DNA of 35,059 nt from Halomicronema sp. CCY15110 (GTDB lineage Bacteria > Cyanobacteriota > Cyanobacteriia > Phormidesmidales > Phormidesmidaceae): the NCBI RefSeq assembly GCF_016888165.1, contig NZ_JACSWC010000276.1, positions 1 through 35,059 on the forward strand. Reading direction: 5' to 3'. The notes below the pieces were generated by a model that did not search any database, was not told the origin of the DNA, and was given only the letters and a program-made list of their open reading frames with translations. The position numbers and the translations under genes are program-made. Below, one piece after another: positions 1-30,062 of the stretch; within the stretch, counting starts at the first letter, position 1; each line of letters starts with the position of its first letter.

Positions 1-409
1 TATAGCGACTCCACTCCTAACTGTCAATCACTTTGATGGAGAAATTTTGGGGTGCTGAAAGCAAGATTGCACGGTGGGTTCAGGGTTTTTGCGGCAAGCG
101 TTGTTTCAACTTCGTGAAAAATCTTTTGCAGATGACAAACTTTTTTTAGGGCCATTCGCTGCTGACGCTCTTTGGTGATGAGCCCAGTTGAACGGTTATT
201 GTCAAAGCGGGGCAGAGTTTCGGTTGACTTGCATGCTCCGCTGTCACGAGTCACTACATTTGGCGTTTCTTTTTGCTTAAAAGTTTAGAGCTTTGCTAGA
301 TATAGCGGGTTCATGAGCTACTCTATTGGCATCTCAGGCATAGTTTGGTTTGGTACGGAACTTGACTATGCTTTCGCAGTATATTTGCACTAATGCCAAG
401 GCTGGGCTT
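1..409. other. non-coding region upstream of dnaE
   Basis: I see no gene I can support here. A 76-codon open frame on the minus strand (24-254) has no recognisable domain and no good ribosome site. A weak promoter-like pair (TTGCTT at 273-278, TAGATA at 297-302, 18 bp apart) could drive dnaE, but only the upstream box is a fair match. The words tatagcg at 1 and 301 are similar but too short to call a repeat. Confidence 0.4.
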
Positions 410-3400
410 ATGTCGTTTGTAGGTCTACATATTCATAGTGACTACAGTTTGTTGGATGGGGCGAGTCAGTTACCGCACCTTGTCGAGTATGCGAAGTCAC
501 TGGAAATGCCCGCGATCGCTCTTACTGATCACGGCGTGATGTACGGCGCGATTGAACTCATCAAAGTTTGTAAGAAGGCTGGCATTAAGCCCATCATCGG
601 CAACGAGATGTACTTAATTAACGGGGACATCGATAAGCAACAGCGACGTCCTCGTTATCACCAGGTGATTTTGGCGAAGAATACCCAGGGCTACAAGAAC
701 CTGGTAAAGCTGACAACGCTCTCCCATTTAGAAGGGATGCAAGGGCGAGGGATCTTTTCACGTCCCTGTATTAACAAGGAGCTATTAGAGAAGTACAAAG
801 AAGGGCTCATCGTTACGAGCGCTTGCCTGGGCGGTGAAGTGCCTCAAGCGATTTTGCAGAAACGGCCGGAGATCGCGCGACGAGAAGCTCAGTGGTATAA
901 GGACGTTTTTGGGGACGACTACTATTTAGAGATCCAAGACCATGGGTCACCCGAAGATCGCATCGTGAATGTCGAAGTGGTGAAGATTGCCCGCGAGCTG
1001 GATATCAAGATTATCTGCACCAACGATTCTCACTTTATCTCGTGTCTCGATGTGGAAGCCCACGATGCCTTGTTGTGCATTCAGACCGGGAAACTGGTGA
1101 CCGAAGATAAACGGTTGCGATATAGCGGCACCGAATATTTGAAGTCGGCGGATGAGATGCGGCGACTGTTTCGAGATCATTTGCCTGATGACGTGATCGA
1201 AGAATCGATCCAAACCACGTTGGAAGTGGCGGATAAGGTCGAAGAATATACCGGAATTTTGGGGCAACCGCGAATTCCCGACTTCCCAATTCCGGAGCAA
1301 TTTGAGGGAGCCGAAGACTACATGGCTCACGTTGCCCGAGAGGGGTTGGTGCAACGGATGAAAGCGGCAGACTACACGGAAATTGAGCAAGAGTATCGCG
1401 ATCGCCTCGAATACGAAGTCGAAATGATGATTCAGATGGGTTTCCCCACTTACTTTTTGGTGGTGTGGGACTACATCCGATTTGCGCGGGAGAACAACAT
1501 TCCAGTCGGGCCGGGGCGGGGCTCAGCCGCAGGGTCTTTGGTGGCCTATGCGATGGGAATTACGAATATTGATCCGGTACACCACGGACTACTGTTTGAG
1601 CGCTTCCTTAATCCTGAACGGAAGTCGATGCCGGATATTGATACGGACTTCTGCATCGAACGGCGAGACGAAGTCATTGATTATGTGACGGAAAAGTACG
1701 GCAAAGAGCGGGTGGCGCAGATTATCACTTTCAACCGCATGACCTCTAAAGCCGTACTCAAGGATGTGGCCAGGGTGCTGGATATTCCCTACGCGGAATC
1801 CGATCGCATGGCGAAACTCATCCCCGTGTCGCGCGGCAAGCCGACCAAACTCAAGGTCATGGTGTCGGATGACACACCTGCGCCCGAGTTTAAGGAGCGC
1901 TACGACAAAGATCCGCAGGTGCAACGCTGGCTGGACATGGCGATGCGGATTGAGGGCATGAACAAAACTTTCGGAGTTCATGCGGCCGGGGTCGTGATCT
2001 CGAAAGATCCGCTGGATGAGATTGTGCCGCTGCAGCGGAATAACGATGGCCAGGTGATCACGCAGTACTACATGGAAGATGTGGAAGCCCTGGGACTCCT
2101 GAAAATGGACTTCTTAGGGCTGCGCAACTTGACGATGATTCACCGGGCGGTGGAGTTGGTGGCAGCGGGCAAAGGCGAAGTCCTCGATATGGACGATTTG
2201 CCGATGGATGATCCAGCGACCTTCAAGCTGCTAGAAAAGGGCGATTTGGGGGGCGTATTTCAACTGGAATCTTCGGGGATGCGGCAAATTGTGCGGGATT
2301 TAAAGCCGTCGGGTTTAGAAGACATTTCGTCGGTCTTGGCTCTATATCGACCGGGGCCGCTAGATGCAGGGCTGATTCCCAAGTTCATAAACCGGAAGCA
2401 CGGGCGCGAGAAAATTGACTTTGCGGACAAAGTTCTGGAGCCAATTCTCAGCGAGACCTACGGCATCATGGTCTACCAAGAACAGATCATGAAAATTGCC
2501 CAGGATATGGCGGGCTATTCGCTGGGACAGGCTGACCTGTTGCGAAGAGCTATGGGTAAAAAGAAAGTCTCGGAGATGGAGAAGCACAAAGGACAATTCA
2601 TTGAAGGGTCGGTAGCCAAGGGTGTTCCCAAGAAAGTGGTCGAAGAGCTTTGGGATCAGATGGTGAAGTTTGCGGAGTACTGCTTCAATAAGTCGCACTC
2701 TACCGCCTACGGATTTGTGACCTTTCAAACAGCGTATCTGAAGGCGAATTATCCCGTCGAATATATGGCGGCGCTGCTGACCTCGAACAGCGGCGACCAG
2801 GATAAGGTGCAGATGCACATTGCGAACTGCATCAGCATGGGCATTGAAGTGCTGCCGCCGAATATCAATGAGTCGCGGGTGGATTTCACACCGAAGGGGC
2901 AGCAGATTTTGTTTGGCCTGTCGGCGGTGCGCAACCTTGGGCAGGGAGCCATTGAGTGTCTTTTAGAGAGTCGCGAGGAGGACGGGCCATTCACGTCGTT
3001 GCCGGAGCTGTGCGATCGCGTTGATATGCGGGCAGTAAACCGGCGAGCGTTGGAGGCGTTGATTCTCAGTGGCGCATTTGACCCCATTGACCCGAATCGC
3101 AACCAGTTGATGCACGATTTGGAACTGGTCTTGGAATGGGCGCAAAGTCGGGCCAAGGATCGAGAGATTGGTCAGGGCAACTTGCTGGATATGCTGGGCG
3201 TGGGAGGCGATCCGGCGGGAGAGATCGCGTCCATGGGAGGCTTTGAAAGTGCTCCGAAAGCGCCACCGGTAGATGATTTTGAACCGCAAGACAAGCTCAA
3301 ACAGGAAAAGGAACTACTCGGCTTCTACATTTCAGACCATCCCCTGAAGTCGGTGCAAAAGTCAGCCCGCATTTTGGCTCCGGTGAACTTAGGCGAACTG

Positions 3401-3928
3401 GAAGGATTACCGGAAAATGTGACGTTGAGCGCGATCGCAATGTTGGCGAACGTGAAACCCATCGTGACGAAAAAAGGCGATCGCATGGCCATCGTGCTGC
3501 TCGAAGATCTCTCCGGCAGCGTGGAAGGGGTCGTGTTCCCCCGCTCTTATGAACGGATTGGGCAGCACATTCAGCCCGATGCCCGGTTGATGGTGTGGGG
3601 TAAATGCGATCGCCGGGACGATCAGATTCAATTCATCGTTGATGATGCTGAACCCATCGAAGACGTAACCATGGTCATGGTGGATCTGGATGCCAGCATT
3701 GCCGCTGATATTGAGCAACAGCATCGCTTACGCAATGTGATTCGGAGCAATCAAGGCGATGATCCGAAATATGCCCGAGTTCCTGTGATTGCCGTGATTG
3801 GCAAAGATGTCGAGCGGCAGGTAGTACGGTTAGGGGCTCAGTTTCGGGTCAAGGATGCGGAAGCCGCGATCGCAGCGCTAGCCCGAGCCGATTTCAAGGC
3901 CCGCACCAGTCCTTTGATCAGCGCTTAG
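410..3928 (+). CDS. dnaE: DNA polymerase III subunit alpha, intact and intein-free
   Basis: This is the replicative DNA polymerase catalytic subunit (C-family), which works in the cytoplasm within the holoenzyme. I chose the ATG at 410 because the conserved N-terminus [13 protein letters not shown] begins there and an AAGG ribosome site lies about 8 bases upstream. An in-frame TTG at 350 would add 20 unconserved residues. The product is 1172 aa, close to the extein total of cyanobacterial DnaE. The PHP domain starts at once with HIHSDYS (His7, His9). The polymerase palm has DIDTDF with Asp409, Asp411 and Asp413, matching the E. coli D401/D403 pair. The fingers and tau-binding parts follow, with an OB-fold near residues 990-1070. 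Many cyanobacteria split this gene at a trans-splicing intein between KFAEY and CFNKS; here Tyr757-Cys758 are contiguous. The gene appears monocistronic and is followed by an inverted-repeat element. Confidence 0.97.
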
Positions 3929-4180: not shown

Positions 4181-5695
4181 CTAAGAAGTGGGCAGGGCGA
4201 TGCGGTTACGCCCCTGCGCTTTGGCCTGATACAACGCGCGATCGGCCAGATTGAGTAACTCATCAGGAGCGATCGCTGCTTGGGGCACCATTGAGGCCAG
4301 GCCAAAACTCAGGGTCAAACTCCCAGATTGAGAATCTTCGTGCCGAATGGCCAATGCCTGAATACGGCAGCGCAGTATCCCAAGCAACTCTACGGCCGCA
4401 TCGGCCTCCGTATCCGGCAGCAGAATGACAAACTCTTCGCCGCCGTAGCGGGCGACCAAGTCTTGCGATCGCTTAAAGACTAACTGCATCGTGCTTGCCA
4501 CCTGTTTAAAACAGGTATCGCCTTCAGGGTGTCCATAGCGATCGTTGTACTGTTTGAAGAAATCAATATCCGCCAGAATCAACGTCAACATGCCACCCCG
4601 AGTCTGTTGCTCTCGCCAACACTCTTCTAGGTAATGGTCAAATCGACGGCGATTGGCGACCCCGGTCAAACCATCCATGGTCGCGAGGGTTTGCCAATGC
4701 TCGTACAGTTCTGCTTGAAATACCGCAATGCCAAACTGCATGGCGATTCGAGACAACAGTTGAATTTCAGTCTCGGTCCAGTAGCGTGGCCCCCGGCAAT
4801 GGTGGGCAATCAGCAATCCCCAAAGCCGCCCCTCTTGCAACACGGGCACGACCAGATTGGCCCGCACGCCAAAGCCGCTCAGTAACTCGATATGACAAGC
4901 ATCGATGCCAGCAGTGTAAATATCGTTGATCGCTCGCACGCGACCTTGTTCGTAGAGCGAGACATAGCCATCGCGAAAGCACGGCTCTTCGATGTGGGTA
5001 AAGAGAATGGGCATCACCCCCGGTGCCGCTGATTCAACGGTCACGGTACCGCTCCAGTCAGGCTTGAAACGGTAAAGCACAACCCGATCTGTCCGCAAAA
5101 ACAACCGCACCTGCGCCACGGTAGTGTCTAAAATTTCATCTAACTCCGTACACTCATAGATGCGTTGAGAAATCGTGTCAATCAGTCGTTCTTGGGATAA
5201 CTCTCGTTGCGTTAACTGGCGTTGCCGCCGGAGGATTTTGATCTTTTGCTGTAGGGCTTGATTAATTCTTTTCAGTTCCTGGGTCTCAGCCTGAATGGCC
5301 GCAGCCACCGCTTGATTACTCTGCCGCATCACCTCAGACACGATTTGACGATCTTGCAGTTTTTTCAAACACCAACAGACGATGAGTTGCCCATTGGCAG
5401 TGGCGATAGAGTCAGCATTGACCTGCACTCGAACGGGTTGTCCCAGGGTTTGTAATGACATTTCCCAGGGGGGAATCTGCGCTGCCGTCGTCGCGATATA
5501 GTTCAGTCGCTGCTGTAGCCGCGATCGCTCCGTCGCAACGACAAAATGTGACAAAGACTGCCCCTGCAATGCGGCCAAAGGCTTACCCAGCAAGGTCTGA
5601 GCCGCCTGATTGGCATCTTCAATGTAACCATCAGCAGTTGTGATCAGACAGGATTCAGAGCACAGCTCAAACAGTTTTTGATACTGACCAGTCAT
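4181..5695 (-). CDS. PAS-cyanobacteriochrome GAF-GGDEF diguanylate cyclase
   Basis: A 504-aa soluble sensor that probably makes cyclic di-GMP from two GTP under light control. A PAS domain spans about residues 5-110, followed by a coiled-coil linker (about 125-175), a GAF domain (about 184-330) and a GGDEF domain (335-500). The GAF domain has Cys267-His268 in ACHIELL, the canonical bilin-attachment site of cyanobacteriochromes, and a second cysteine (Cys239) in EPCF, 28 residues earlier. That resembles the DXCF class with Asp replaced by Glu. The cyclase site is intact: GGEEF at 418-422, metal-binding Asp376 and Asp378 in ADID, and an RSQD inhibitory site (409-412). No EAL or HD-GYP partner lies nearby. 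The GGDEF call is certain; the chromophore and wavelengths are inferred. Confidence 0.93.
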   Translation of the reverse strand: MTGQYQKLFELCSESCLITTADGYIEDANQAAQTLLGKPLAALQGQSLSHFVVATERSRLQQRLNYIATTAAQIPPWEMSLQTLGQPVRVQVNADSIATANGQLIVCWCLKKLQDRQIVSEVMRQSNQAVAAAIQAETQELKRINQALQQKIKILRRQRQLTQRELSQERLIDTISQRIYECTELDEILDTTVAQVRLFLRTDRVVLYRFKPDWSGTVTVESAAPGVMPILFTHIEEPCFRDGYVSLYEQGRVRAINDIYTAGIDACHIELLSGFGVRANLVVPVLQEGRLWGLLIAHHCRGPRYWTETEIQLLSRIAMQFGIAVFQAELYEHWQTLATMDGLTGVANRRRFDHYLEECWREQQTRGGMLTLILADIDFFKQYNDRYGHPEGDTCFKQVASTMQLVFKRSQDLVARYGGEEFVILLPDTEADAAVELLGILRCRIQALAIRHEDSQSGSLTLSFGLASMVPQAAIAPDELLNLADRALYQAKAQGRNRIALPTS

Positions 5696-6365: not shown

Positions 6366-6842
6366 ATGGACATTGGCCCATTGGAACCGTTGAAGCCTTA
6401 TTTGAACTTTTTTCATCCCATTTTTATGTGGGTTTTATTAGGGCTGAGCATTTATGCCATGTATCTCGGGTTCAAAATTCGCCAGACGCGGTCAGCGGAA
6501 GGTGATGTCAAGAAGGAATTGATTAAAGGCAAGTTTAACGCGCGGCATCACAAGTGGGGCTCAGCCTTGCTCGCACTGATGGTGTTGGGCAGTATCGGCG
6601 GCATGGGAGTGACCTACGTCAACAACGGCAAGCTCTTTTTCGGCCCGCACCTACTGGTGGGGTTGGGCATGACGGGGATGATTGCCACCTCAGCTTCTTT
6701 GGTACCGTTTATGCAAAAGGGCAATGACACGGCGCGTTCAGCCCATATTGCTCTGAACGTGATTTTAGTCGGGTTGTTTGGCTGGCAAGCTGTCACGGGG
6801 GTGCAGATTGTGCAGCGCATCCTCGAAAACTTCGGGAGCTAA
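6366..6842 (+). CDS. DUF4079 four-helix membrane protein
   Basis: A 158-aa integral membrane protein resembling the DUF4079 family, found mainly in cyanobacteria and plastid-bearing lineages; its biochemical role is unknown. Four hydrophobic segments are visible at about 15-36, 63-85, 95-116 and 124-147. A hydrophilic basic loop (about 37-62) ends in His61-His62. Histidines at 17, 61/62, 95 and 127 sit at or near the helix ends, an arrangement like b-type cytochromes of the b561/ferric reductase sort; haem binding is my inference. The start is supported by a strong ribosome site (GGAAGGG). The gene stands alone and ends at a perfect hairpin terminator. Confidence 0.85.
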   Translation: MDIGPLEPLKPYLNFFHPIFMWVLLGLSIYAMYLGFKIRQTRSAEGDVKKELIKGKFNARHHKWGSALLALMVLGSIGGMGVTYVNNGKLFFGPHLLVGLGMTGMIATSASLVPFMQKGNDTARSAHIALNVILVGLFGWQAVTGVQIVQRILENFGS

Positions 6843-6954: not shown

Positions 6955-8301
6955 TCACGACAGCGACGTTTCGGTTGCCAAACTGTCCAAGATCTCAACG
7001 ATGGCCTGCCAGGTGGGGCGATCGCCGAGCTGTGACGACAGACAGGCTTGCTGCAGGTGCTTCAGGGTGTGCCAGCGATCGCTGTGGGCCTCGATATCTG
7101 GCGGCGGACAACGGTCTAACAGATCTTCTAACAGACAGCCAAACGCCCTCACTTCAAGGCGGGCTAAATCCGTGCTGAGATGAGCCTCGGTAGCGTCGAA
7201 AAATCCAGCGGCCCCAAAATCGCTCAAAAAACTGTCGCCGCTAGCATTCGTCAAAATATTGTGCGCGTAAAGGTCGCCATGCAGAATGCCACGACCATGC
7301 AAATGAGCGGCAGCGGCGGCAATCCCGCTGGCGATCCGCAGACTCACCGCCAAAGGAAACTGCGTCTCGGCAGGGTAGGTGTCGCGGGTGCAACTGGCCA
7401 AACTAGGCGGGCCGCCCAAGGTTTTGTAGTCAGCTTCGATAAAGGGAAAAACCAGTCCGGCTTTTTGCGCTGGATGATTCACCACCTGCCCCAATACGCT
7501 CACCAAATGAGGATGACGCCCAGCCGCCATACAGGCCTGCATTTCATCGATCGGGGAGCCATCGCTGGTGATAGCGCCTTTGAATAATTTGACGGCAACG
7601 GTCTGCGAGGAGTCCTGGCGTTGCCAAACGGCTCGGTAAATGACGCCAGAGGCTCCCTGTCCTAGTTCTTCAGCCACGGCGAGATCGCCCCAATCAATTG
7701 TGGTCAAATCTCCAGACGATTGGGGAACTGGGGAGAATTCAGTGCAAAAGGGATTGCCCGCATAGGCCAGCCAAGCGAGACGGGGCAACGACAGTAACCA
7801 ATCGGGCAGAGCCGATAACTGATTGGCCGCGAGTCGAATCAGTTCTAAGTTTTGACAGGCGGCCAACTCATCCGGCAAAAACTGTAGGCGATTGCCTGCC
7901 AGCATGAGTTTTTGCAGTTTAGACAATTGGCCCAGCGAGGCGGGTAGGGTGGTGAGTTGGTTGTTGGTGAGAATCAACCACCGGGTTTGGGGGGGCAGGG
8001 CGGTTTCGCTCAGGTTGGTGAGCTGATTGGCCTTAAAGCTAATCATGGAGAGTTGAGGACACTGTGCCAATACTTCGGGCACGGTCTCAAATTGATTGTT
8101 GTTCAGAAACAGCACCTGGAGGTGGCGCAGCCGAGGCAAGTCGTCGGGTAATGCCGATAGACGATTGTTGGACAGGTCCAAAATCTCTAAGCAATCCGCC
8201 AGCTTAAAGATCTCCGGGGGAAATTGGGTCAGCTGCTCTGACAAACTGAGGCGCTTGACGCCTTGAATCTCACCGCTTCGTAATTGCTCCAATGTGGCCA
8301 T
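6955..8301 (-). CDS. leucine-rich repeat protein kinase
   Basis: A 448-aa protein with N-terminal leucine-rich repeats (about residues 25-190, of the type LxxLxLxxNxLxxLP) fused to a Ser/Thr-type protein kinase domain (about 205-445). Kinase motifs numbered from the ATG at 8301 are the glycine-rich loop GQGASG (214-219), Lys238 in VAVKLF, HGDLYAHN in the catalytic loop (His341, Asp343, Asn348) and DFG (361-363). The catalytic Asp, Asn and Lys are all present, so it is probably active, though HRD is HGD as in kinases not activated through an activation-loop phosphate. An upstream TTG at 8346 would add 15 residues without support. There is no signal peptide or membrane segment. The substrate is unknown. 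The convergent neighbour is separated by a terminator. Confidence 0.9.
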   Translation of the reverse strand: MATLEQLRSGEIQGVKRLSLSEQLTQFPPEIFKLADCLEILDLSNNRLSALPDDLPRLRHLQVLFLNNNQFETVPEVLAQCPQLSMISFKANQLTNLSETALPPQTRWLILTNNQLTTLPASLGQLSKLQKLMLAGNRLQFLPDELAACQNLELIRLAANQLSALPDWLLSLPRLAWLAYAGNPFCTEFSPVPQSSGDLTTIDWGDLAVAEELGQGASGVIYRAVWQRQDSSQTVAVKLFKGAITSDGSPIDEMQACMAAGRHPHLVSVLGQVVNHPAQKAGLVFPFIEADYKTLGGPPSLASCTRDTYPAETQFPLAVSLRIASGIAAAAAHLHGRGILHGDLYAHNILTNASGDSFLSDFGAAGFFDATEAHLSTDLARLEVRAFGCLLEDLLDRCPPPDIEAHSDRWHTLKHLQQACLSSQLGDRPTWQAIVEILDSLATETSLS

Positions 8302-8430
8302 GGTGTTGGGGGTGCTTTGAAGGTGTGCGTCGCTGTTTGGGGTCAAGCAGATTTTAGCCGTGGATGCGGCCCGGATAAATTCTCAAGGTGCTTACCCGCA
8401 GTAGATGAAACATGACGACCAGCCGAAAAT

Positions 8431-8883
8431 CTAGGCGGTGGCTGCTCGCTCTAGCACGAGGGTAAACGGGCCATCGTTCACGATATCGACCTGCATCATC
8501 GCGCCAAATCGGCCCATTTCCACCACTAAACCACTTTGCGTGAGCATCTCGACAAACTGCTCATAGAGCATTTCCGCTTGGTCAGGTGGGGCGGCTTGGG
8601 CAAAAGAGGGGCGACGACCTTTATTGCAATCGCCATAAAGGGTGAACTGGCTAATGACTAAGAGTTCCCCCTGGATGTCTTGGACAGATAAATCAGGGCG
8701 ATCGCTCCCCGGCGCGGAAAAAATTCTCAGGTACAGACATTTACGGGCCATCCAAGCGAGCTCGGCAGGCGTGTCGGTGGGGGCAATGCCGACGAGCAGG
8801 TTGAGGCCGCGACCGATTTGCCCCACGATTGCACCGGCCACCGACACACTGGAGGACTGCACTCGCTGAACGACAACACGCAT
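8431..8883 (-). CDS. dtd: D-aminoacyl-tRNA deacylase
   Basis: This cytoplasmic enzyme removes D-amino acids (D-Tyr and others, and Gly from tRNA-Ala) from mischarged tRNA. At 150 aa it has the normal family length. The signature SQFTLYGD lies in the middle, with KGRRPSF just after it, and the cross-subunit Gly-Pro motif is seen in [10 protein letters not shown] near the C-terminus. I chose the ATG at 8883 because MRVVVQRV is the family N-terminus; an open frame continues 26 codons upstream but is not conserved. It is co-directional with its neighbours but has gaps of about 130 bp on each side, so it may be transcribed alone. Confidence 0.95.
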
Positions 8884-9010
8884 GGAACGGATTCTCAGGG
8901 AAGGGGTAAACACGGGCCGAAGGGGCAAGGGAGCAGCCCATCGCCGGGCTGTAGACAGCATAAACGCCGATGCGATCGCTCACCAGCGATCGCGCCATCC
9001 CCATGTCTCC

Positions 9011-10291
9011 TCAGGCTGACTCTTGACGTGTCGGGGCCGCTGTTGACTCAGCTGACTGTGCGGGGATTTCCAGTAGTTGCGCGGCCAGAATTTGCGCGAT
9101 CGCTGCTGCGGCTCCGGGTGGCCCCAGGCGGCGCTGACCGTTTTGACGAATAGCGTCCAGGCGATCGCCATCAGCCAACACCTGAGCCATCTTGCCGCCA
9201 ATGTCCTCAGTATTCGGGACTAACACCACGGACGACCCTAACAGCCGGGTTTGCAGCTTAGCAAAGGTGGGGTTGAATTGCGGCCCTGCGCCCGGCGTAA
9301 TGAAAGCTGGCTTGCCCAGTCCCACAAATTGCTCGGTAGCCGTACCCGCCATGGCGATCGCCGTATCCGCCGCTTGCAAACAGTCAGCGTAAGCAGTTTG
9401 GGTCAAGACTACCTGCCCCTGGGCTTTCGTGAATTGGGTCTGGGGATGCCGGGGATCGGGTTGCCAACCAGCGGCAGCTAACCCTGACTGTAATTCAGTC
9501 AAATCGAGAGCGGGGGCGATCGCCCCAAAAAACTGCACGGCACGCGGGGCAAATTGTGACAACACGCTGTCCATTGCGGTAACGATCAGTTGCCAGTTGG
9601 CATAAGCTTCAGGCGATCGCGACCCTGGTAACAACGCCACCGTCAGGGTCTCGGCGGCATCTGGTTTGAGCGCACTCAACTGCGCCGTGGGGTCCAAGCC
9701 ATCCATCATCGGATTGCCCGCAAACACTTGGGGCACGCCGAGTTGCTGCAATTCCCCCCGAGTCAATTCATCGCGAACGATCGCCGCCCGACAGCGATCG
9801 CGACTCATTAGCCAGCGCTCCCACGGCAAATACATCGAGCCCGCCCAACCCGCATACCAGGGCAAGTCCGGCAGTGGCCCCTGCTCATCCCGCAGATAGT
9901 AGGCCGACTTGGCCGTGCCAATGACGGCATAGGGCAACCCACTCCACCAAGCAAAAGCGGCAGGAATCACATCGCCTACTGCCAGCACGGTGCCGCCTTC
10001 CCGAGCCCACTGTTTCAACGCTTTGAGCTGCCTCAGGGTGAGCTGCACCAGTCCGCCTTTGAGATCGCGTGCCAGTTGCCGGCTATCCATATAAATGAAA
10101 CCACCAGACGGTAAAGTCTGAGTCGCGGCAATCAGGGGAATTTGCTGGTTGACGAATGAGCTGCCTACTCCCACTAAAGGCAGGGCGGCCATTTCCACCG
10201 CTGGATGCCGCGATCGCAACTCTGAAAGGATGCGGAGGGCGATCTCGTCTTCCCCATGACCATTACTAATGCAGAGCAACCGAGTCGTCAT
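9011..10291 (-). CDS. lipid-A-disaccharide synthase-related protein
   Basis: A 426-aa GT-B-fold protein of the cyanobacterial family distantly related to LpxB. The N-terminus RLLCISNGHGED and the C-terminal donor-site region with ALLPGSRSPEA and AGTATEQFVGLGKPA match that family as I know it. True LpxB joins two acylglucosamines in lipid A synthesis, but this group lacks the other lpx genes nearby and its acceptor is unknown. The ATG at 10291 fits the conserved start; the frame opens 12 codons earlier. There is no signal peptide. It lies downstream of the RluA-like gene on the same strand with an 82-bp gap. Confidence 0.85.
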   Translation of the reverse strand: MTTRLLCISNGHGEDEIALRILSELRSRHPAVEMAALPLVGVGSSFVNQQIPLIAATQTLPSGGFIYMDSRQLARDLKGGLVQLTLRQLKALKQWAREGGTVLAVGDVIPAAFAWWSGLPYAVIGTAKSAYYLRDEQGPLPDLPWYAGWAGSMYLPWERWLMSRDRCRAAIVRDELTRGELQQLGVPQVFAGNPMMDGLDPTAQLSALKPDAAETLTVALLPGSRSPEAYANWQLIVTAMDSVLSQFAPRAVQFFGAIAPALDLTELQSGLAAAGWQPDPRHPQTQFTKAQGQVVLTQTAYADCLQAADTAIAMAGTATEQFVGLGKPAFITPGAGPQFNPTFAKLQTRLLGSSVVLVPNTEDIGGKMAQVLADGDRLDAIRQNGQRRLGPPGAAAAIAQILAAQLLEIPAQSAESTAAPTRQESA

Positions 10292-10373
10292 ACTCACAGA
10301 ACTGAATGACTGGACTCTAAGCAGCATAGACCGAGACTGGGTGAGTCATCCCGCTAACTCGTTCGCGGTTGGT

Positions 10374-14587: not shown

Positions 14588-17200
14588 CTAATGAGATTCG
14601 ATCGCTTGTCGCAACGCCGCATCGTGGGTCAATAGCGCCTGTGGGTCAATCGCCAACGACTTTGCGAGTTTCAGCAGGGGTTTCAGCCACATCATGGCTT
14701 GCGCGGGATCTTCCTGTCGTAGCACGCTCAGCCAGTCGGAAAGGTGTTGCCAATACAGTTCTTGCGATCGCACCAACGCAATCCCGCCCAGCTCATAACC
14801 CAGGCTAATCAGCCGTCGCAGCCAGTCCACATCCTCGACCAGATGCTCTGGCTTCGGATGATTCAGAAAATGGCGCAGCGATCGCCAGATGATCCCTTCC
14901 AAAATGCGCTGGCCTTCGGGAATGGCACAATCGCATTGAAACTGCTGGGATTCTTGGGCGATAGTCTCTAGCTGCATCAGGTGAACCGTGCCCCGATTGA
15001 GCGGCCCGCCATTGAGATCAATGGTTTCTTGATCCAGCAGACGCAGACTTTCCAAAGCGCGATGACGGATTGCCACTTCTGCCGCGACTTGTAACTCTTG
15101 GGGCACCGTCAGACCATCGCGGTGAAAGGCTTTGAGCAAGCCGTGATTGTTGCGATAGACCTGATCATAAAGCTGGTCTAAACGCTGCAAGGTGTCGCGG
15201 CTGAGGAGCTGCATGATGCGGTGGCGCTCTTCGGCAAACAGGGTCTGCAAGTTATAAGCGTGATCCCCAAAGGCTTCGTTCATGGCTAAAATCACCTGCG
15301 CCGCGCTGCCACTGGTAAACGCGGCCAGCACCGTCTCCTTGGCTCGCTGATAGTCCAGCCGTCGCCGGAAGCCGTTGACACTACAGTGGAAATCCCAGCC
15401 GCCCAAGTGCAGCACCACAAAACTCAGGTCAGAGCGATCGCCGGTCACATCCGACGTCACCTGCAACCGCCCCACCGCCAGCGACAACGGCCCCATGCGC
15501 TGCACCTGATAGTCGTGTTGCTGAATGGTGTAGCAATAGAGGCGCTGTTCGACGTGGTAAGGCGTGAACAGGGAACTCATGGCGTAATGGGCCACCACCT
15601 GTTCTAGGCTCACCTGGGAAGGAATCGCCAATTGGCGATAGACGCCCGCCGCATTGTGAAACTGGGGCACATTGCTGAGCCCCGGTTCCAGTCGGTTGAT
15701 GAATTCCGTTTCCAGCTCGACGCCGCTGATTTCGCCCGCGAGTTCGATCGCCCGCGCCGCATAGCGCAAAATCTGCGTCCCCTCAGGGCGCGACACCTCA
15801 TCAAAAAACCAGCCGCAACTGGTGTACATCAACAAAGCATGGCGCTGCATTTCCAGCAGTCGCAACGCCTCGACCTGCTCAGCATTGCTCAGGGCATGAT
15901 GCTGATATTGACGAAAGAACTGATCGCGACTCTGGGCCGTGCGCTGACGAATCACTTGGACGTAGCTATCCCGCGCCGCCCAAGGATCAATAAACAGGGT
16001 GGTGCCATACTGCTCAAAGATGTCTGCCAATTCGTCGCGCAGCCAGTCGAGGGCATCGCGTAGGGGCCGCCGCCACTTTTGATGCCACAGGCCGCCGCCG
16101 CCGCACCCGCAGTCATCTTGCCAGCGATCGACCCCGTGGGAGCAGCTCCAAGCGGTCACGGGTTTCAGCACGGCTTCCCACGTCGGCGGGCAATGGTGCA
16201 GGTAATAGGCATAGTTGGTGACCGTCCACCCCTGATTCGGAAACTCTTTCGTGACGGCATAGGCGAGGGTTTTCTCCGCGCCGCCCCGGTGGTGGCCAAA
16301 GGTTTCACCATCGGTAGCCACGCCCACCAGTTGCGACGGCCGATGATCGCCTCGCACCGCTTGACCAATGCGCCCGGCAAAATGCTGGGAAGAACTGAGC
16401 ACATCGTTAAAGCCCATGTCACGCGAAATCGGGCCATCGTAGAAAAAGACATCGATATAGCGATGGGAACCGTCCGCATTATGACTCGGCAAATAACAGC
16501 GGTAAGGTCGATTGGGATCAATTTGCCCACCCCCCACTTCATGCCATGCCGATTCCGGCTCATCGGCCCCGGGGATCACGCGACATCGCTGGACTTGGGA
16601 GGGCGCGAGGATGGTGAATTTAAAGCCTTCATCCACTAAAGCTTCAAGGGTGGGATAGTCCACGGCGGTCTCAGCTAGCCAGATGCCCTCGGGCTCGCGG
16701 CCAAACCGGGCCACAAAATCAGCTTTGCCCCAGCGAATCTGCGTGTGTTTATCGCGATCGCTCGCCAGGGGCATGATGATGTGGTTGTACACCTGGGCGA
16801 TCGCATTGCCGTGGCCCGCAAAGCGATCGCAGCTCTCGCGATCGGCCTCTAAAATGCGGCGATAGGTTTCGGGATCATGGCGCTCCATCCAACTCATTAG
16901 CGTGGGGCCGATGTTGAAGCTGATATGGGCGAAATTATTCACGATATCGATTACCTCGCCATGCTCATTCAGAATGCGGGCGTAGGCATTGGGACGATAG
17001 CACTCGTGGTGAACGCGCTCATTCCAATCGTGAAAGGGCGCGGCGCTGGGCTGGTGTTCGATGGCCCCAAGATACGGATTTTCGCGCGGGGGCTGATAAA
17101 AATGTCCATGAATACACACGCACACGCCCAGCACCGTGGGGGGATCAGGCAGGGGCTGAGAGGGCGCGGTCACCGGGGACATTTTGCTGATTTCGCTCAT
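14588..17200 (-). CDS. GH57 glycoside hydrolase with DUF3536 domain
   Basis: An 870-aa protein with an N-terminal glycoside hydrolase family 57 domain and a long C-terminal DUF3536 region. GH57 enzymes are retaining amylases, pullulanases or branching enzymes acting on alpha-glucans such as glycogen. HGHFYQPPRENP (31-42) is the first conserved block, IWLAETAVD holds the likely nucleophile Glu177, and VATDGETFGHH holds the likely acid/base Asp297. A Cys/Gly cluster (DCGCGGGGLWHQ) follows. There is no signal peptide, so it is probably cytoplasmic. The exact substrate of this GH57-DUF3536 group is not established to my knowledge. The ATG at 17200 is the first in frame. The gene appears to be transcribed on its own. 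Confidence 0.92.
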   Translation of the reverse strand: MSEISKMSPVTAPSQPLPDPPTVLGVCVCIHGHFYQPPRENPYLGAIEHQPSAAPFHDWNERVHHECYRPNAYARILNEHGEVIDIVNNFAHISFNIGPTLMSWMERHDPETYRRILEADRESCDRFAGHGNAIAQVYNHIIMPLASDRDKHTQIRWGKADFVARFGREPEGIWLAETAVDYPTLEALVDEGFKFTILAPSQVQRCRVIPGADEPESAWHEVGGGQIDPNRPYRCYLPSHNADGSHRYIDVFFYDGPISRDMGFNDVLSSSQHFAGRIGQAVRGDHRPSQLVGVATDGETFGHHRGGAEKTLAYAVTKEFPNQGWTVTNYAYYLHHCPPTWEAVLKPVTAWSCSHGVDRWQDDCGCGGGGLWHQKWRRPLRDALDWLRDELADIFEQYGTTLFIDPWAARDSYVQVIRQRTAQSRDQFFRQYQHHALSNAEQVEALRLLEMQRHALLMYTSCGWFFDEVSRPEGTQILRYAARAIELAGEISGVELETEFINRLEPGLSNVPQFHNAAGVYRQLAIPSQVSLEQVVAHYAMSSLFTPYHVEQRLYCYTIQQHDYQVQRMGPLSLAVGRLQVTSDVTGDRSDLSFVVLHLGGWDFHCSVNGFRRRLDYQRAKETVLAAFTSGSAAQVILAMNEAFGDHAYNLQTLFAEERHRIMQLLSRDTLQRLDQLYDQVYRNNHGLLKAFHRDGLTVPQELQVAAEVAIRHRALESLRLLDQETIDLNGGPLNRGTVHLMQLETIAQESQQFQCDCAIPEGQRILEGIIWRSLRHFLNHPKPEHLVEDVDWLRRLISLGYELGGIALVRSQELYWQHLSDWLSVLRQEDPAQAMMWLKPLLKLAKSLAIDPQALLTHDAALRQAIESH

Positions 17201-17893: not shown

Positions 17894-18889
17894 ATGATGC
17901 AGTGGCCCTCGATTAGCATTATTGTGCCGACGTACCAACGCGAAGCGGTGCTGTGCAGCACCCTCGCCGATGTGCTTAAGCAAGACTACCCCGACTACGA
18001 AGTCATCGTGGTGGATCAGACTCAAGACCACCAGCCCGAGACCCAGGCTTATTTAGAAGAGCTGACGGCAACAGAGCAGATTCAGTATTACCAGTTAAGT
18101 TGGGCGAGCCTGCCCGGTGCGCGGAATTACGGGGTCGAGCGATCGCGGGGCGACATCATTCTCTTTATCGACGATGATGTGGAGCTACCCGAGAGCTACC
18201 TCCACGCCCACGCCAAAGTCTTTATGGAAAAGCCCGAAGTTGGGGCCGTGGCCGGACGCGTGTTCGATCGCATGAAGCTGGGCGATGATCCCAACCTGTC
18301 GATTGACCAGCTACCACCGGAAGCAATGGATCCGGGGATCGCCTGGTATCACATTGATCTCGTCCACACGACGCAACCCCAACGGGTGATCAGTGCGCGG
18401 GGCTGCAATATGTCCTTTCGGCGCGAAATCTTTGGCAAACACGGCCTCCGGTTTGACGAGCGCTTTCGGGGTAATGCCGTGCGCGAAGAGTCGGACTTTT
18501 GCTTACGCCTACGCGAAACGGGCTATATCGTCTGGTACTCCCCCGAGGCCAATCTGATTCATATCGGCGAAGAAAGTGGTGGCTGCCACGACATCAGCAC
18601 GCGATCGCTCGCCTATCAAATCACCTTTTACCACAACCACTTTTTGATGGGGTTGAAAAACCTTACCCCCGGTCAAGCCCTGCGCCTCTACGCCAAACTC
18701 TTTGACTGCCATGTGTTGGGGCACCCCCCCTGCTACAAAAGCGGCTCGCCGATCAAAGTGGCGACCCGCTTTGTCTTCTACTGGCTAGGTTTACTGGATG
18801 CGATCGGCACCCTGATCAAAACCGGCAAAAAACATCGCGTTTACACCACGCCCGCCGATACCCCCATGTCCCTCTCAGCCCAATATTGA
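17894..18889 (+). CDS. hpsN: family 2 glycosyltransferase, HpsN-like
   Basis: A 331-aa GT2 (GT-A fold) glycosyltransferase that should transfer a sugar from a nucleotide donor during assembly of an exported polysaccharide at the cytoplasmic face of the membrane. SISIIVPTYQRE opens the Rossmann-like part, and FIDDDVELP carries the metal-binding Asp93-Asp95. RGCNMSFRR and REESDFCLRLRE supply the acceptor/catalytic region. There are no clear membrane helices except a weak one near 285-300. The order GT2-GT4-GT4 and sequence blocks such as SLPGARNYG match my recollection of hpsN in hormogonium polysaccharide loci; the symbol is tentative. The product begins MMQ; either Met could be used. Confidence 0.75.
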   Translation: MMQWPSISIIVPTYQREAVLCSTLADVLKQDYPDYEVIVVDQTQDHQPETQAYLEELTATEQIQYYQLSWASLPGARNYGVERSRGDIILFIDDDVELPESYLHAHAKVFMEKPEVGAVAGRVFDRMKLGDDPNLSIDQLPPEAMDPGIAWYHIDLVHTTQPQRVISARGCNMSFRREIFGKHGLRFDERFRGNAVREESDFCLRLRETGYIVWYSPEANLIHIGEESGGCHDISTRSLAYQITFYHNHFLMGLKNLTPGQALRLYAKLFDCHVLGHPPCYKSGSPIKVATRFVFYWLGLLDAIGTLIKTGKKHRVYTTPADTPMSLSAQY

Positions 18890-28018: not shown

Positions 28019-29086
28019 CTACAGATTGCCATAACGTTGAATCTGGGCGGCCGTAAGTTTCTGCATGTCTTGCTCAGCCATATAGGCTTGATACCACTCC
28101 ACAATCCATTCTAGGGTCATGCCTAAATCTAGTTTGGGTTGCCACTTGAGTCGACTCTTCGCTTTCGAGCAATCCAGCTTCAAGTAAGTCGCTTCGTGGG
28201 GATTCACCTTAGTGTCTAATTGCCAAGAAGCACCGTCTCCCCAGAGCCGAGTTAGCTGCTCAGTAATCCAAGAAACGGGTCGAGCATCTTCATCATTCGG
28301 CCCAAAGTTCCACCCCTCTGCGTAGGTGCCCCCGTCTTCCCACATTTGCTCAGCCAAAGTCATGTATCCATTCAGCGGCTCCAGCACATGTTGCCAGGGG
28401 CGAATAGCATTCGGACTACGAATCAAGACCGACTCACCCGCCATGATGGCCCGCATAATGTCAGGAATCAGCCGATCTTCCGCCCAGTCACCACCGCCAA
28501 TCACATTGCCGGCACGAACACTCGCTAAACTCGTTGTGTGCTCGTCGTATTGCTCTGGACTAAAGAAGGAATTGCGATAGGCCGCAGCGACTAACTCCGC
28601 ACAGCCTTTGCTGTTGGAGTAAGGATCATGTCCCCCCATCGCTTCGTTTTCGCGATAGCCCCACACCCATTCGCGGTTCTCGTAGCATTTGTCACTGGTG
28701 ATGTTCACGACGACTCGGGCGCAATTCGTCTGACGCGCCGCTTCGAGCAAATGCACAGTGCCCATGACGTTGGTGGAGTAGGTTTCTACAGGATGCTTGT
28801 AGGAATAACGCACCAGCGGCTGAGCGGCCATGTGGAAAATGATCTCGGGCTGATGCTGGGCGATCGCTGCCTGCAACTTCTCCAAGTCGCGAACATCTCC
28901 CTCTACTGAGGCCATGCCTTCACTAACGTTAGCCACGTCAAACAAACTGGGACTGGTAGGTGGCAACAGGGAATACCCCATCACCTCGGCCCCAGCGGTT
29001 TGCAACCAAAGGGACATCCAACTGCCCTTAAAGCCAGTGTGACCTGTCAGAAAAACTCGCTTACCGCGCCAAAAATCAGCATTCAT
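28019..29086 (-). CDS. rfbG: CDP-glucose 4,6-dehydratase
   Basis: A 355-aa short-chain dehydrogenase/epimerase-superfamily enzyme that converts CDP-glucose to CDP-4-keto-6-deoxyglucose with bound NAD+. TGHTGFKG (14-21) binds NAD. Thr130, Asp132 and Lys133 in ITSDKCYENREW and Tyr156-x3-Lys160 in YSNSK are the active-site residues. VRAGNVIGGGDWAEDRL, a CDP-glucose dehydratase hallmark, is also present. There is no ribosome site at the ATG. It lies 202 bases after rfbF, with a hairpin between, and 102 bases before the epimerase gene. Confidence 0.95.
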   Translation of the reverse strand: MNADFWRGKRVFLTGHTGFKGSWMSLWLQTAGAEVMGYSLLPPTSPSLFDVANVSEGMASVEGDVRDLEKLQAAIAQHQPEIIFHMAAQPLVRYSYKHPVETYSTNVMGTVHLLEAARQTNCARVVVNITSDKCYENREWVWGYRENEAMGGHDPYSNSKGCAELVAAAYRNSFFSPEQYDEHTTSLASVRAGNVIGGGDWAEDRLIPDIMRAIMAGESVLIRSPNAIRPWQHVLEPLNGYMTLAEQMWEDGGTYAEGWNFGPNDEDARPVSWITEQLTRLWGDGASWQLDTKVNPHEATYLKLDCSKAKSRLKWQPKLDLGMTLEWIVEWYQAYMAEQDMQKLTAAQIQRYGNL

Positions 29087-29237
29087 AATGTCAAAAAAAT
29101 ATGGTTAGCAAAAATGAGGTTGCTTTGTAGAGCAAGACGGAAAACAAGATTCATTAAAACTCAAACCAATCTTTTACGTACTAGATATGACGATTTAAAT
29201 ATCCTTGTCGAACCTCTACAAAGCAAAAGCCCTCGGC

Positions 29238-29274
29238 AGAGGAGATTAAGTCACTCAGGCAATTAATCTCCTCT
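29238..29274 (-). terminator. 12-bp hairpin just downstream of rfbF
   Basis: AGAGGAGATTAA (29238-29249) pairs perfectly with TTAATCTCCTCT (29263-29274) around a 13-base loop. Read on the minus strand, it follows the rfbF stop by 14 bases and is followed by GCCGAGGGCTTTTGC, a weak T tract. It may partly end transcription between rfbF and rfbG. Confidence 0.5.
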
Positions 29275-29288
29275 TAAAACTGAATAAA

Positions 29289-30062
29289 TTACCATACCTT
29301 CCAAGGGGCTTCATTCGCATCCCAAAGTCTTTCAAGATACTGCTTGTCACGCAAAGTATCCATCGGCTGCCAAAAGCCATTGTGCTTATAGGCTGACAAC
29401 TCTTCTTTATGAGCTAGCTTTTGCAGCGGCTCTTTTTCCCAAGAAATTGAATCATTCTCGATGAAGTCGATCACCTGCGGATTGAGCACAAAGAAACCAC
29501 CATTAATCCAGGCTCCATCGCCTTCTGGCTTTTCTTGAAAGTGAGTAATCTTAGTCTGTTCTTTAGCCAAGGCGATCGCGCCGAAGCGGCCAGGTGGCTG
29601 CACAGCTGTCAGAGTAGCCAACGTATTTTGCTGCTTATGGAATTCAACTAGAGCCGAGATATCCACATTAGATACGCCGTCACCATAGGTAAAACAGAAA
29701 TCCTCATTACCAATGTGCTCGCGCACCCGCTTTAGACGACCACCCGTCATTGTCGTATCGCCGGTATCTACCAACGTGACGCGCCAGGGCTCAGCCTTTC
29801 CAGCGTGGACGTTCATTTGATTAAAGCGCATGTCAAACGTAACGTCAGACATGTGGAGAAAATAGTTAGCAAAATACTCCTTGATCACATATCCCTTATA
29901 ACCACAGCAAACAATGAAGTCTGTAATGCCATAGTGAGAGTAAGTTTTCATAATGTGCCAAAGAATTGGCTTGCCACCAATTTCAACCATTGGCTTTGGC
30001 TTAATAGCAGTTTCCTCACTTAAGCGCGTTCCCAATCCGCCAGCTAATATGACAGCTTTCAT
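29289..30062 (-). CDS. rfbF: glucose-1-phosphate cytidylyltransferase
   Basis: A 257-aa nucleotidyltransferase that makes CDP-glucose from CTP and glucose-1-phosphate. The N-terminus [20 protein letters not shown] is the nucleotide-binding loop of the family. [11 protein letters not shown] contains the metal-binding Asp128, and [12 protein letters not shown] near the C-terminus is typical of RfbF. Length is normal. It is the first gene of the CDP-sugar operon, and its promoter should be in the 725-bp region to the right. No ribosome site precedes the ATG. Confidence 0.95.

Follow-up and report, generated by a model that had tools for sequence, protein, structure and literature searches.

The window analysed here is the 35,059-nucleotide stretch of Halomicronema sp. 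CCY15110 at positions 1 to 35,059 of contig NZ_JACSWC010000276.1. At 4181-5695 it carries a gene for a protein of 504 residues with the layout PAS, long helix, cyanobacteriochrome (CBCR) GAF, GGDEF, as delineated by the translation of the open reading frame, by Pfam and by an orthologue with 86% identity. The initial annotation had placed the gene correctly and left its strand unstated; the three plus-strand frames of 4181-5695 contain 15, 27 and 15 stops, and the coding strand is the minus strand, read from 5695 to 4181. All of the following features therefore lie on the minus strand. The PAS domain (residues 4-106, 5378..5686) matches Pfam PF00989 at E 8e-8, is poorly modelled and is reached by few alignment rows. 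Residues 110-181 (5153..5368) form a coiled-coil-like linker, part of a long helix spanning residues 104-181 in an AlphaFold2 model, and this helix between PAS and GAF is predicted to be a coiled coil. The CBCR GAF domain follows (residues 184-325, 4721..5146; Pfam E 5e-25), and the protein ends with a GGDEF diguanylate cyclase domain (residues 338-498, 4202..4684; Pfam E 7e-47), which also matches a WspR fusion structure (3i5c, E 2.2e-39).

The AlphaFold2 model of the 504-residue protein was built with 30 alignment rows. Its block means are mostly at or above 90 in the GAF and GGDEF domains, poor in the PAS domain, and 81 and 83 within residues 231-250, the part that contains the EPCF loop described below; as bilin is absent from the model, it is uninformative on the geometry of Glu237 in that loop. 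When the whole model was submitted to Foldseek, the top matches were the phytochrome-activated diguanylate cyclases 5llx, 6et7 and 5llw at rmsd values above 30 Å (33 Å for 5llx), indicating that the domains match and their arrangement does not. The CBCR 6oap ranks after these phytochrome cyclases, with WspR and TePixJ lower.

The GAF domain combines the GAF fold with a canonical cysteine in a CH motif and CBCR pocket residues, and its matches in Foldseek include TePixJ, AnPixJg2 and 6oap. In the PDB search its best match was 6oap, which is PPHK (PMC11480761), followed by miRFP670nano3 and TePixJ. PPHK is the closest solved CBCR by sequence (E 2.7e-48; 45-48% identical in Foldseek), but it has Tyr in place of the second cysteine, retains the Asp of the motif and is a histidine kinase. 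The initial annotation had proposed a dual-cysteine CBCR of the TePixJ type joined to a GGDEF domain, with Cys267-His268 at the canonical bilin site, Cys239 in an EPCF motif at the 28-residue spacing of TePixJ, and Glu at the usual Asp of DXCF. Alignment with the DXCF GAF domain of TePixJ (PDB 3vv4/4fof) bore out these residue assignments. Against 3vv4 the alignment runs without gaps (E 3.7e-34; IEEPCFRDGYVSLYEQGR...CHIELL in the query and IEDPCFREHWVEAYRQGR...CHLNQL in TePixJ), a match far beyond chance, and it pairs I-E-E-P-C239-F with I-E-D-P-C-F and C267-H with C-H. Cys239 of the EPCF motif (residues 237-240, 4976..4987) thus falls on TePixJ Cys494, the predicted bilin attachment site Cys267-His268 (4892..4897) on Cys522-His523, and Glu237 on Asp492; the absence of gaps makes the spacing of the two cysteines exactly that of Cys494 and Cys522, by which the bilin of TePixJ is held (PMC6955287). 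The proposed fusion of such a GAF domain to a cyclase is further supported by intact GGDEF motifs and by bilin-pathway genes in the genome, which has two haem oxygenase matches and one PcyA match.

TePixJ, whose chains are named methyl-accepting chemotaxis protein, shares with the window protein both cysteines, the Phe after the second and the His after the canonical one, but differs not only at Asp492 (Glu237) but also at Gln526, Trp499 and His498, which are Leu, Tyr and Gly in the window GAF; His498 and Trp499 are reported to bind the B-ring propionate in TePixJ (PMC6955287), and their replacement weighs against reading the window protein as a dual-Cys CBCR cyclase. We compared the pocket positions named in that study with 112 D-type dual-Cys relatives. 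The usual residues are present, namely Arg at R507 (found in 85 of the 112 relatives), His at H523 (93) and Asn at N535 (104), and Tyr at W499 (68) and Leu at Q526 (52) are the commonest residues at those positions in the D-type relatives too, so that the GAF domain looks ordinary apart from Glu237. As in DXCF proteins, the second cysteine stands at the Cys494 position and is followed by Phe (Cys239-Phe240), while the first position of the motif is Glu237, not Asp. We regard the domain as an EXCF variant, expected from its sequence to act like a DXCF protein, and not as a strict member of the DXCF group.

The GGDEF domain likewise has the intact active and inhibitory sites that had been annotated. 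The GG[DE]EF signature appears as GGEEF (residues 418-422, 4430..4444), DIDFFKQYNDRYGHPEGD is found in the sequence, and the N and D of NDRYGHPEGD are present. In this family the metal-binding Asp and the guanine-binding N and D are needed for GTP binding. Five residues ahead of GGEEF stands RSQD (residues 409-412, 4460..4471), an RxxD inhibitory site. The motif columns are invariant in the 30-row alignment, most rows of which had been picked for a GGDEF-like motif. By its motifs the protein should be a diguanylate cyclase.

As to where c-di-GMP might act, a PilZ-cellulose synthase route has been described for SesA of Thermosynechococcus (PMC5871770). No PilZ domain was found in the window's genome at E 0.001, in a search that was positive, as a control, in 5 of 14 genomes, and a SesA-like route is therefore not evident. 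Five ComFB-family matches are present in the genome. Both c-di-GMP and c-di-AMP are reported as ligands of ComFB and of its homologue CdgR (PMC12313861), which makes these five proteins candidate receptors at most; this genome may depend mainly on ComFB-type receptors for cyclic dinucleotides.

Two further proteins of the same genome have an EXCF GAF domain ahead of GGDEF (L010 and L014). L010 (G000:C94:7500-13000), with its counterpart L011 in the second species (G001:C4:390000-395000), is a second EPCF CBCR of the genus, a short GAF-GGDEF protein of 389 residues whose canonical motif differs between the species, being CH in one and CY in the other. L014 (G000:C119:30000-35500) has the Cph2 order GAF, PHY, GGDEF, EAL, GAF, GGDEF, with EPCF in its CBCR GAF domain. 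Across proteins of this order the motif is EPCF in L014, L013 (G001:C2), L119 and L222, and DPCF in L120, L122, L220 and L221. A protein of Cph2-like order with extra GAF domains (L118, G092:C2:319233-322787) has three GAF domains between EAL and GGDEF, the third of which carries EPCF.

A homologue search of 18 other genomes, five of them from the same genus, recovered an orthologue of the window protein in one, another species of the genus (G001), with 503 residues and 86% identity from end to end; ranked by E-value, the next match showed 49% identity along some 390 residues, while identities of 53% were reached by some single-domain matches. The orthologue keeps both cysteines, the Glu and the CH, and its motif reads ESCF: the Glu is encoded by GAG in the two species, and the X residue is Pro in the window protein and Ser in the orthologue. 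The Glu is therefore no accident of a single strain. Between the two proteins dN is 0.05 in the GAF domain, 0.09 in GGDEF and 0.16 in PAS, and dS is 0.86, with 0.84 in the GAF domain; the GAF domain is the most constrained of the three and is under strong purifying selection.

Gene order is also kept between the two species, as read from translations over 10 kb of the other species, a comparison that stops short of the glycosyltransferase region. It runs from dnaE (350-3928 in the window), which neighbours the CBCR gene, through the CBCR gene itself to DUF4079 (6366-6842), a leucine-rich-repeat protein with a C-terminal protein-kinase domain (6955-8346, minus strand), found near the CBCR gene in both species, D-Tyr-tRNA deacylase (8431-8961) and one more open reading frame (9011-10327, minus strand), which encodes 438 residues with no Pfam match at E 0.001 and has a counterpart at the same place with 85% identity. 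Beyond it the window holds, in succession, genes for a pseudouridine synthase, QueF, DUF4168 and a peptidase M23, then a glycosyl hydrolase family 57/DUF3536 protein (14588-17200), glycosyltransferases, the first of which starts at 17894, and sugar-nucleotide-type genes (28019-30062). The suggestion in the initial annotation that the sensor feeds the polysaccharide genes did not hold up: more than 12 kb separates the CBCR gene from the first glycosyltransferase, with nine scanned open reading frames of at least 120 residues between them, eight of which have a Pfam match, and the genome search for PilZ domains was negative. We rejected the link as one of proximity only, since nothing ties the sensor to the glycosyltransferases.

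The frequency of Glu at the Asp site was read from several samples; one comes from six genomes, and in all the others the ranking was by similarity to either the window protein or E-type rows. A first sample of 144 loci, biased towards the query, gave 125 distinct dual-Cys GAF domains (rows being counted as distinct if any letter differs), with Asp in 112, Glu in 12 and Val in one; in its named-genome subset 86 of 88 had Asp, and Glu and Val occurred once each. From six genomes not picked for similarity we took the best 82 of 163 GAF matches, which gave 101 GAF domains that were read, 87 with both sites aligned and 46 dual-Cys; among these best 82 of 163 matches, Asp was found in 42 of the 46, Pro, Gln, Ala and Asn once each, and Glu in none. 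A search over 388 genomes with E-type GAF domains only added 29 new loci and 60 regions lower in its ranking, and the pooled set, enriched for relatives, comprised 237 distinct dual-Cys GAF domains (213 with Asp, 17 with Glu and seven other). One dual-Cys GAF domain (L056) reads EVPCI: Val occupies the Asp position and Ile follows the cysteine, the acid being lost or shifted by one residue.

A quick tree without bootstrap, from which the trait column had been dropped, was built from 225 of the 237 rows, excluding seven with neither Asp nor Glu (one of them a gap) and five cut at an edge; an earlier tree, also quick and without bootstrap, had kept the trait column. On the 225-row tree Asp and Glu interchange at least four times on supported branches and nine times on the best tree, L021 lies on a long branch, and one supported five-row group of Cph2-like GAF domains mixes Glu (four rows) with Asp (one row). 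Sample counts and tree together thus identify Glu at the Asp site as a rare but recurrent natural variant that changes among close relatives. In the pooled, biased sample 16 of the 17 E-type dual-Cys GAF domains stand directly ahead of GGDEF, and at least 32 of the 213 D-type domains are followed by one (31 by motif scan and L220 by Pfam, with five of the 213 cut at an edge). The first query had included the start of GGDEF, and with relatedness taken into account only four supported independent pairs are left, too few for significance to be attainable (median p 0.5); we do not claim Glu as a marker of GGDEF output. The sole E-type domain without GGDEF just downstream, and so a counter-example, is an ESCF dual-Cys GAF (L299, G393:C4:96300-98700) with, by reading, a PAS-like stretch downstream and a response-regulator-like domain ahead.

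The possible effect of Glu237 can be approached through TePixJ, in whose early photoproducts the bilin is reported to shift towards Asp492 and Gln526 (PMC6955287). For the 15E isomer, Asp492 is described as facing the D-ring, which is said to help stabilise the photoproduct (PMC6121604). At the corresponding position in two insert-Cys CBCRs, exchange of Asp for Glu is reported to have preserved bilin binding and lowered photoconversion, more mildly than exchange for Ala, from which the authors inferred that the green state requires a negative charge (PMC5240096). The role of Asp492 and these engineered variants lead us to expect that the photocycle works but that photoproduct stability or yield is altered, and, as the engineered Glu variants photoconvert less well, the photocycle of the window protein may be weak. 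The annotated idea that Glu237 tunes colour or protonation is plausible, and the literature points to photoproduct stability and photoconversion efficiency rather than to colour or protonation.

A Glu in the same loop is also found in the green/red CBCRs of the RcaE/CcaS type (PDB 7ckv), and in the RcaE structure a Glu, assumed here to be that of the loop, adjoins a pyrrole nitrogen (PMC11480761). We rejected the equation of Glu237 with this residue, since the RcaE Glu (QEVF) aligns one column later, at the X of DXCF, and RcaE has Val for the second cysteine. Relatives with an EVFP loop (L154, L150 and L212) have Glu at both columns, however, so that the RcaE alignment alone is not beyond doubt. 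Two GAF domains with QECFP and PGCFP (L149, G117:C1:5561900-5564500; L204, G020:C1:3576300-3581300) have a cysteine at the second-Cys position and CH at the canonical site; their loop resembles those of RcaE (QEVFP) and of relatives with EEVFP, and they are possible dual-Cys members of the RcaE lineage. The literature searched, which misses many spectroscopic papers on DXCF proteins, contained no paper in which EXCF or EPCF, in the spellings searched, occurs with cyanobacteriochrome, and no spectra or enzyme data on an EXCF protein, which may well have been measured or tabulated elsewhere; we therefore infer every photochemical step that follows. We think it rather improbable that EXCF is a repeatedly evolved tuning switch of dual-Cys CBCRs, mainly of sensors that make c-di-GMP, in which the longer acidic side chain would alter how long the green state lives or how it is protonated, making the two-colour switch dependent on dose or intensity.

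SesA, which we take to be Tlr0924, is reportedly termed a DXCF CBCR in the title of one paper. With one CBCR GAF and one GGDEF domain it resembles the window protein, and it is described as a blue-light-induced cyclase with an RxxD site (PMC5871770, PMC5812497); the front domain of the window protein differs in being a PAS domain. Cph2 of Synechocystis is alike by description, having a dual-Cys CBCR GAF domain directly ahead of a GGDEF domain that is active there (PMC5812497), but its front half is a phytochrome-like GAF-GAF-GGDEF-EAL, whereas the window protein has a PAS domain and comprises, by Pfam, PAS-GAF-GGDEF only, not the Cph2 domain order. Judged by its residues and domains, the window protein is a well-known kind of light sensor, and its sole unusual feature is an acidic-residue swap that recurs in related sensors.

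We consider it probable that the protein is a dual-cysteine blue/green CBCR diguanylate cyclase, like SesA or the C-terminal half of Cph2. Typical DXCF CBCRs are reported to make phycoviolobilin, to ligate C10 through the second cysteine and to switch between blue and green (PMC11284453). Phycocyanobilin would here be attached at Cys267 and probably isomerised to phycoviolobilin, and in the dark state Cys239 would probably add to C10 of the bilin to give a blue-absorbing form. Light would isomerise the 15,16 bond, upon which the bond to Cys239 would break, leaving a green-absorbing form, and the helix that joins GAF and GGDEF would relay the change to the GGDEF domain, present as a dimer. Glu237, replacing the Asp that faces the D-ring, would most likely alter photoproduct stability or photoconversion yield and not abolish photochemistry. 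The blue/green switching of DXCF proteins and the shared GAF-GGDEF arrangement make blue light the most likely activating signal, which would raise c-di-GMP synthesis subject to product inhibition at RSQD.

The sign of light control is not readable from sequence, and the PAS domain is a further input. The photoreceptor could thus work as just described and yet have its green-absorbing (15E) state as the active one, or be controlled mainly through PAS, blue light then lowering c-di-GMP. In a LOV-GGDEF-EAL protein of Synechococcus elongatus blue light is indeed reported to raise c-di-GMP breakdown (PMC5812497), but it raises synthesis in Cph2, SesA and SesC (PMC5871770, PMC5812497), and we consider the inverse sign unlikely. 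We hold it to be quite unlikely that the GAF domain binds bilin while Glu237 displaces the chromophore, so that Cys239 ligates C10 partially or not at all and the photocycle becomes a single-Cys one, such as green/teal or red/green, or a mixture. Motif swaps are reported to disturb photocycles in insert-Cys CBCRs (PMC5240096) and close single-Cys relatives exist, such as 6oap with Asp-Gln-Tyr-Phe; against this, the orthologue retains Cys239 and Phe240 even though the X residue differs, and the two EXCF paralogues retain the second cysteine, as do their own orthologues. That the cysteines are invariant in the 30-row alignment carries no weight here because its rows had been chosen as dual-Cys. 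That the GAF domain has ceased to bind bilin and uses its two cysteines to sense redox state or a small ligand is very improbable: GAF relatives without the canonical cysteine, presumably bilin-free, do occur in the same genomes, but the window GAF is strongly constrained and retains both cysteines, the His following Cys267 and the usual pocket residues.

If the reading as a dual-cysteine blue/green cyclase is correct, the protein would add one more compact light-driven c-di-GMP synthase with a single CBCR domain to those already known. Should the Glu variant behave like a DXCF protein, the finding would be an ordinary one. Should it behave differently, natural Asp/Glu pairs, present even within one supported Cph2-like group that contains both EPCF and DPCF, already exist for testing the acidic residue beside the bilin.
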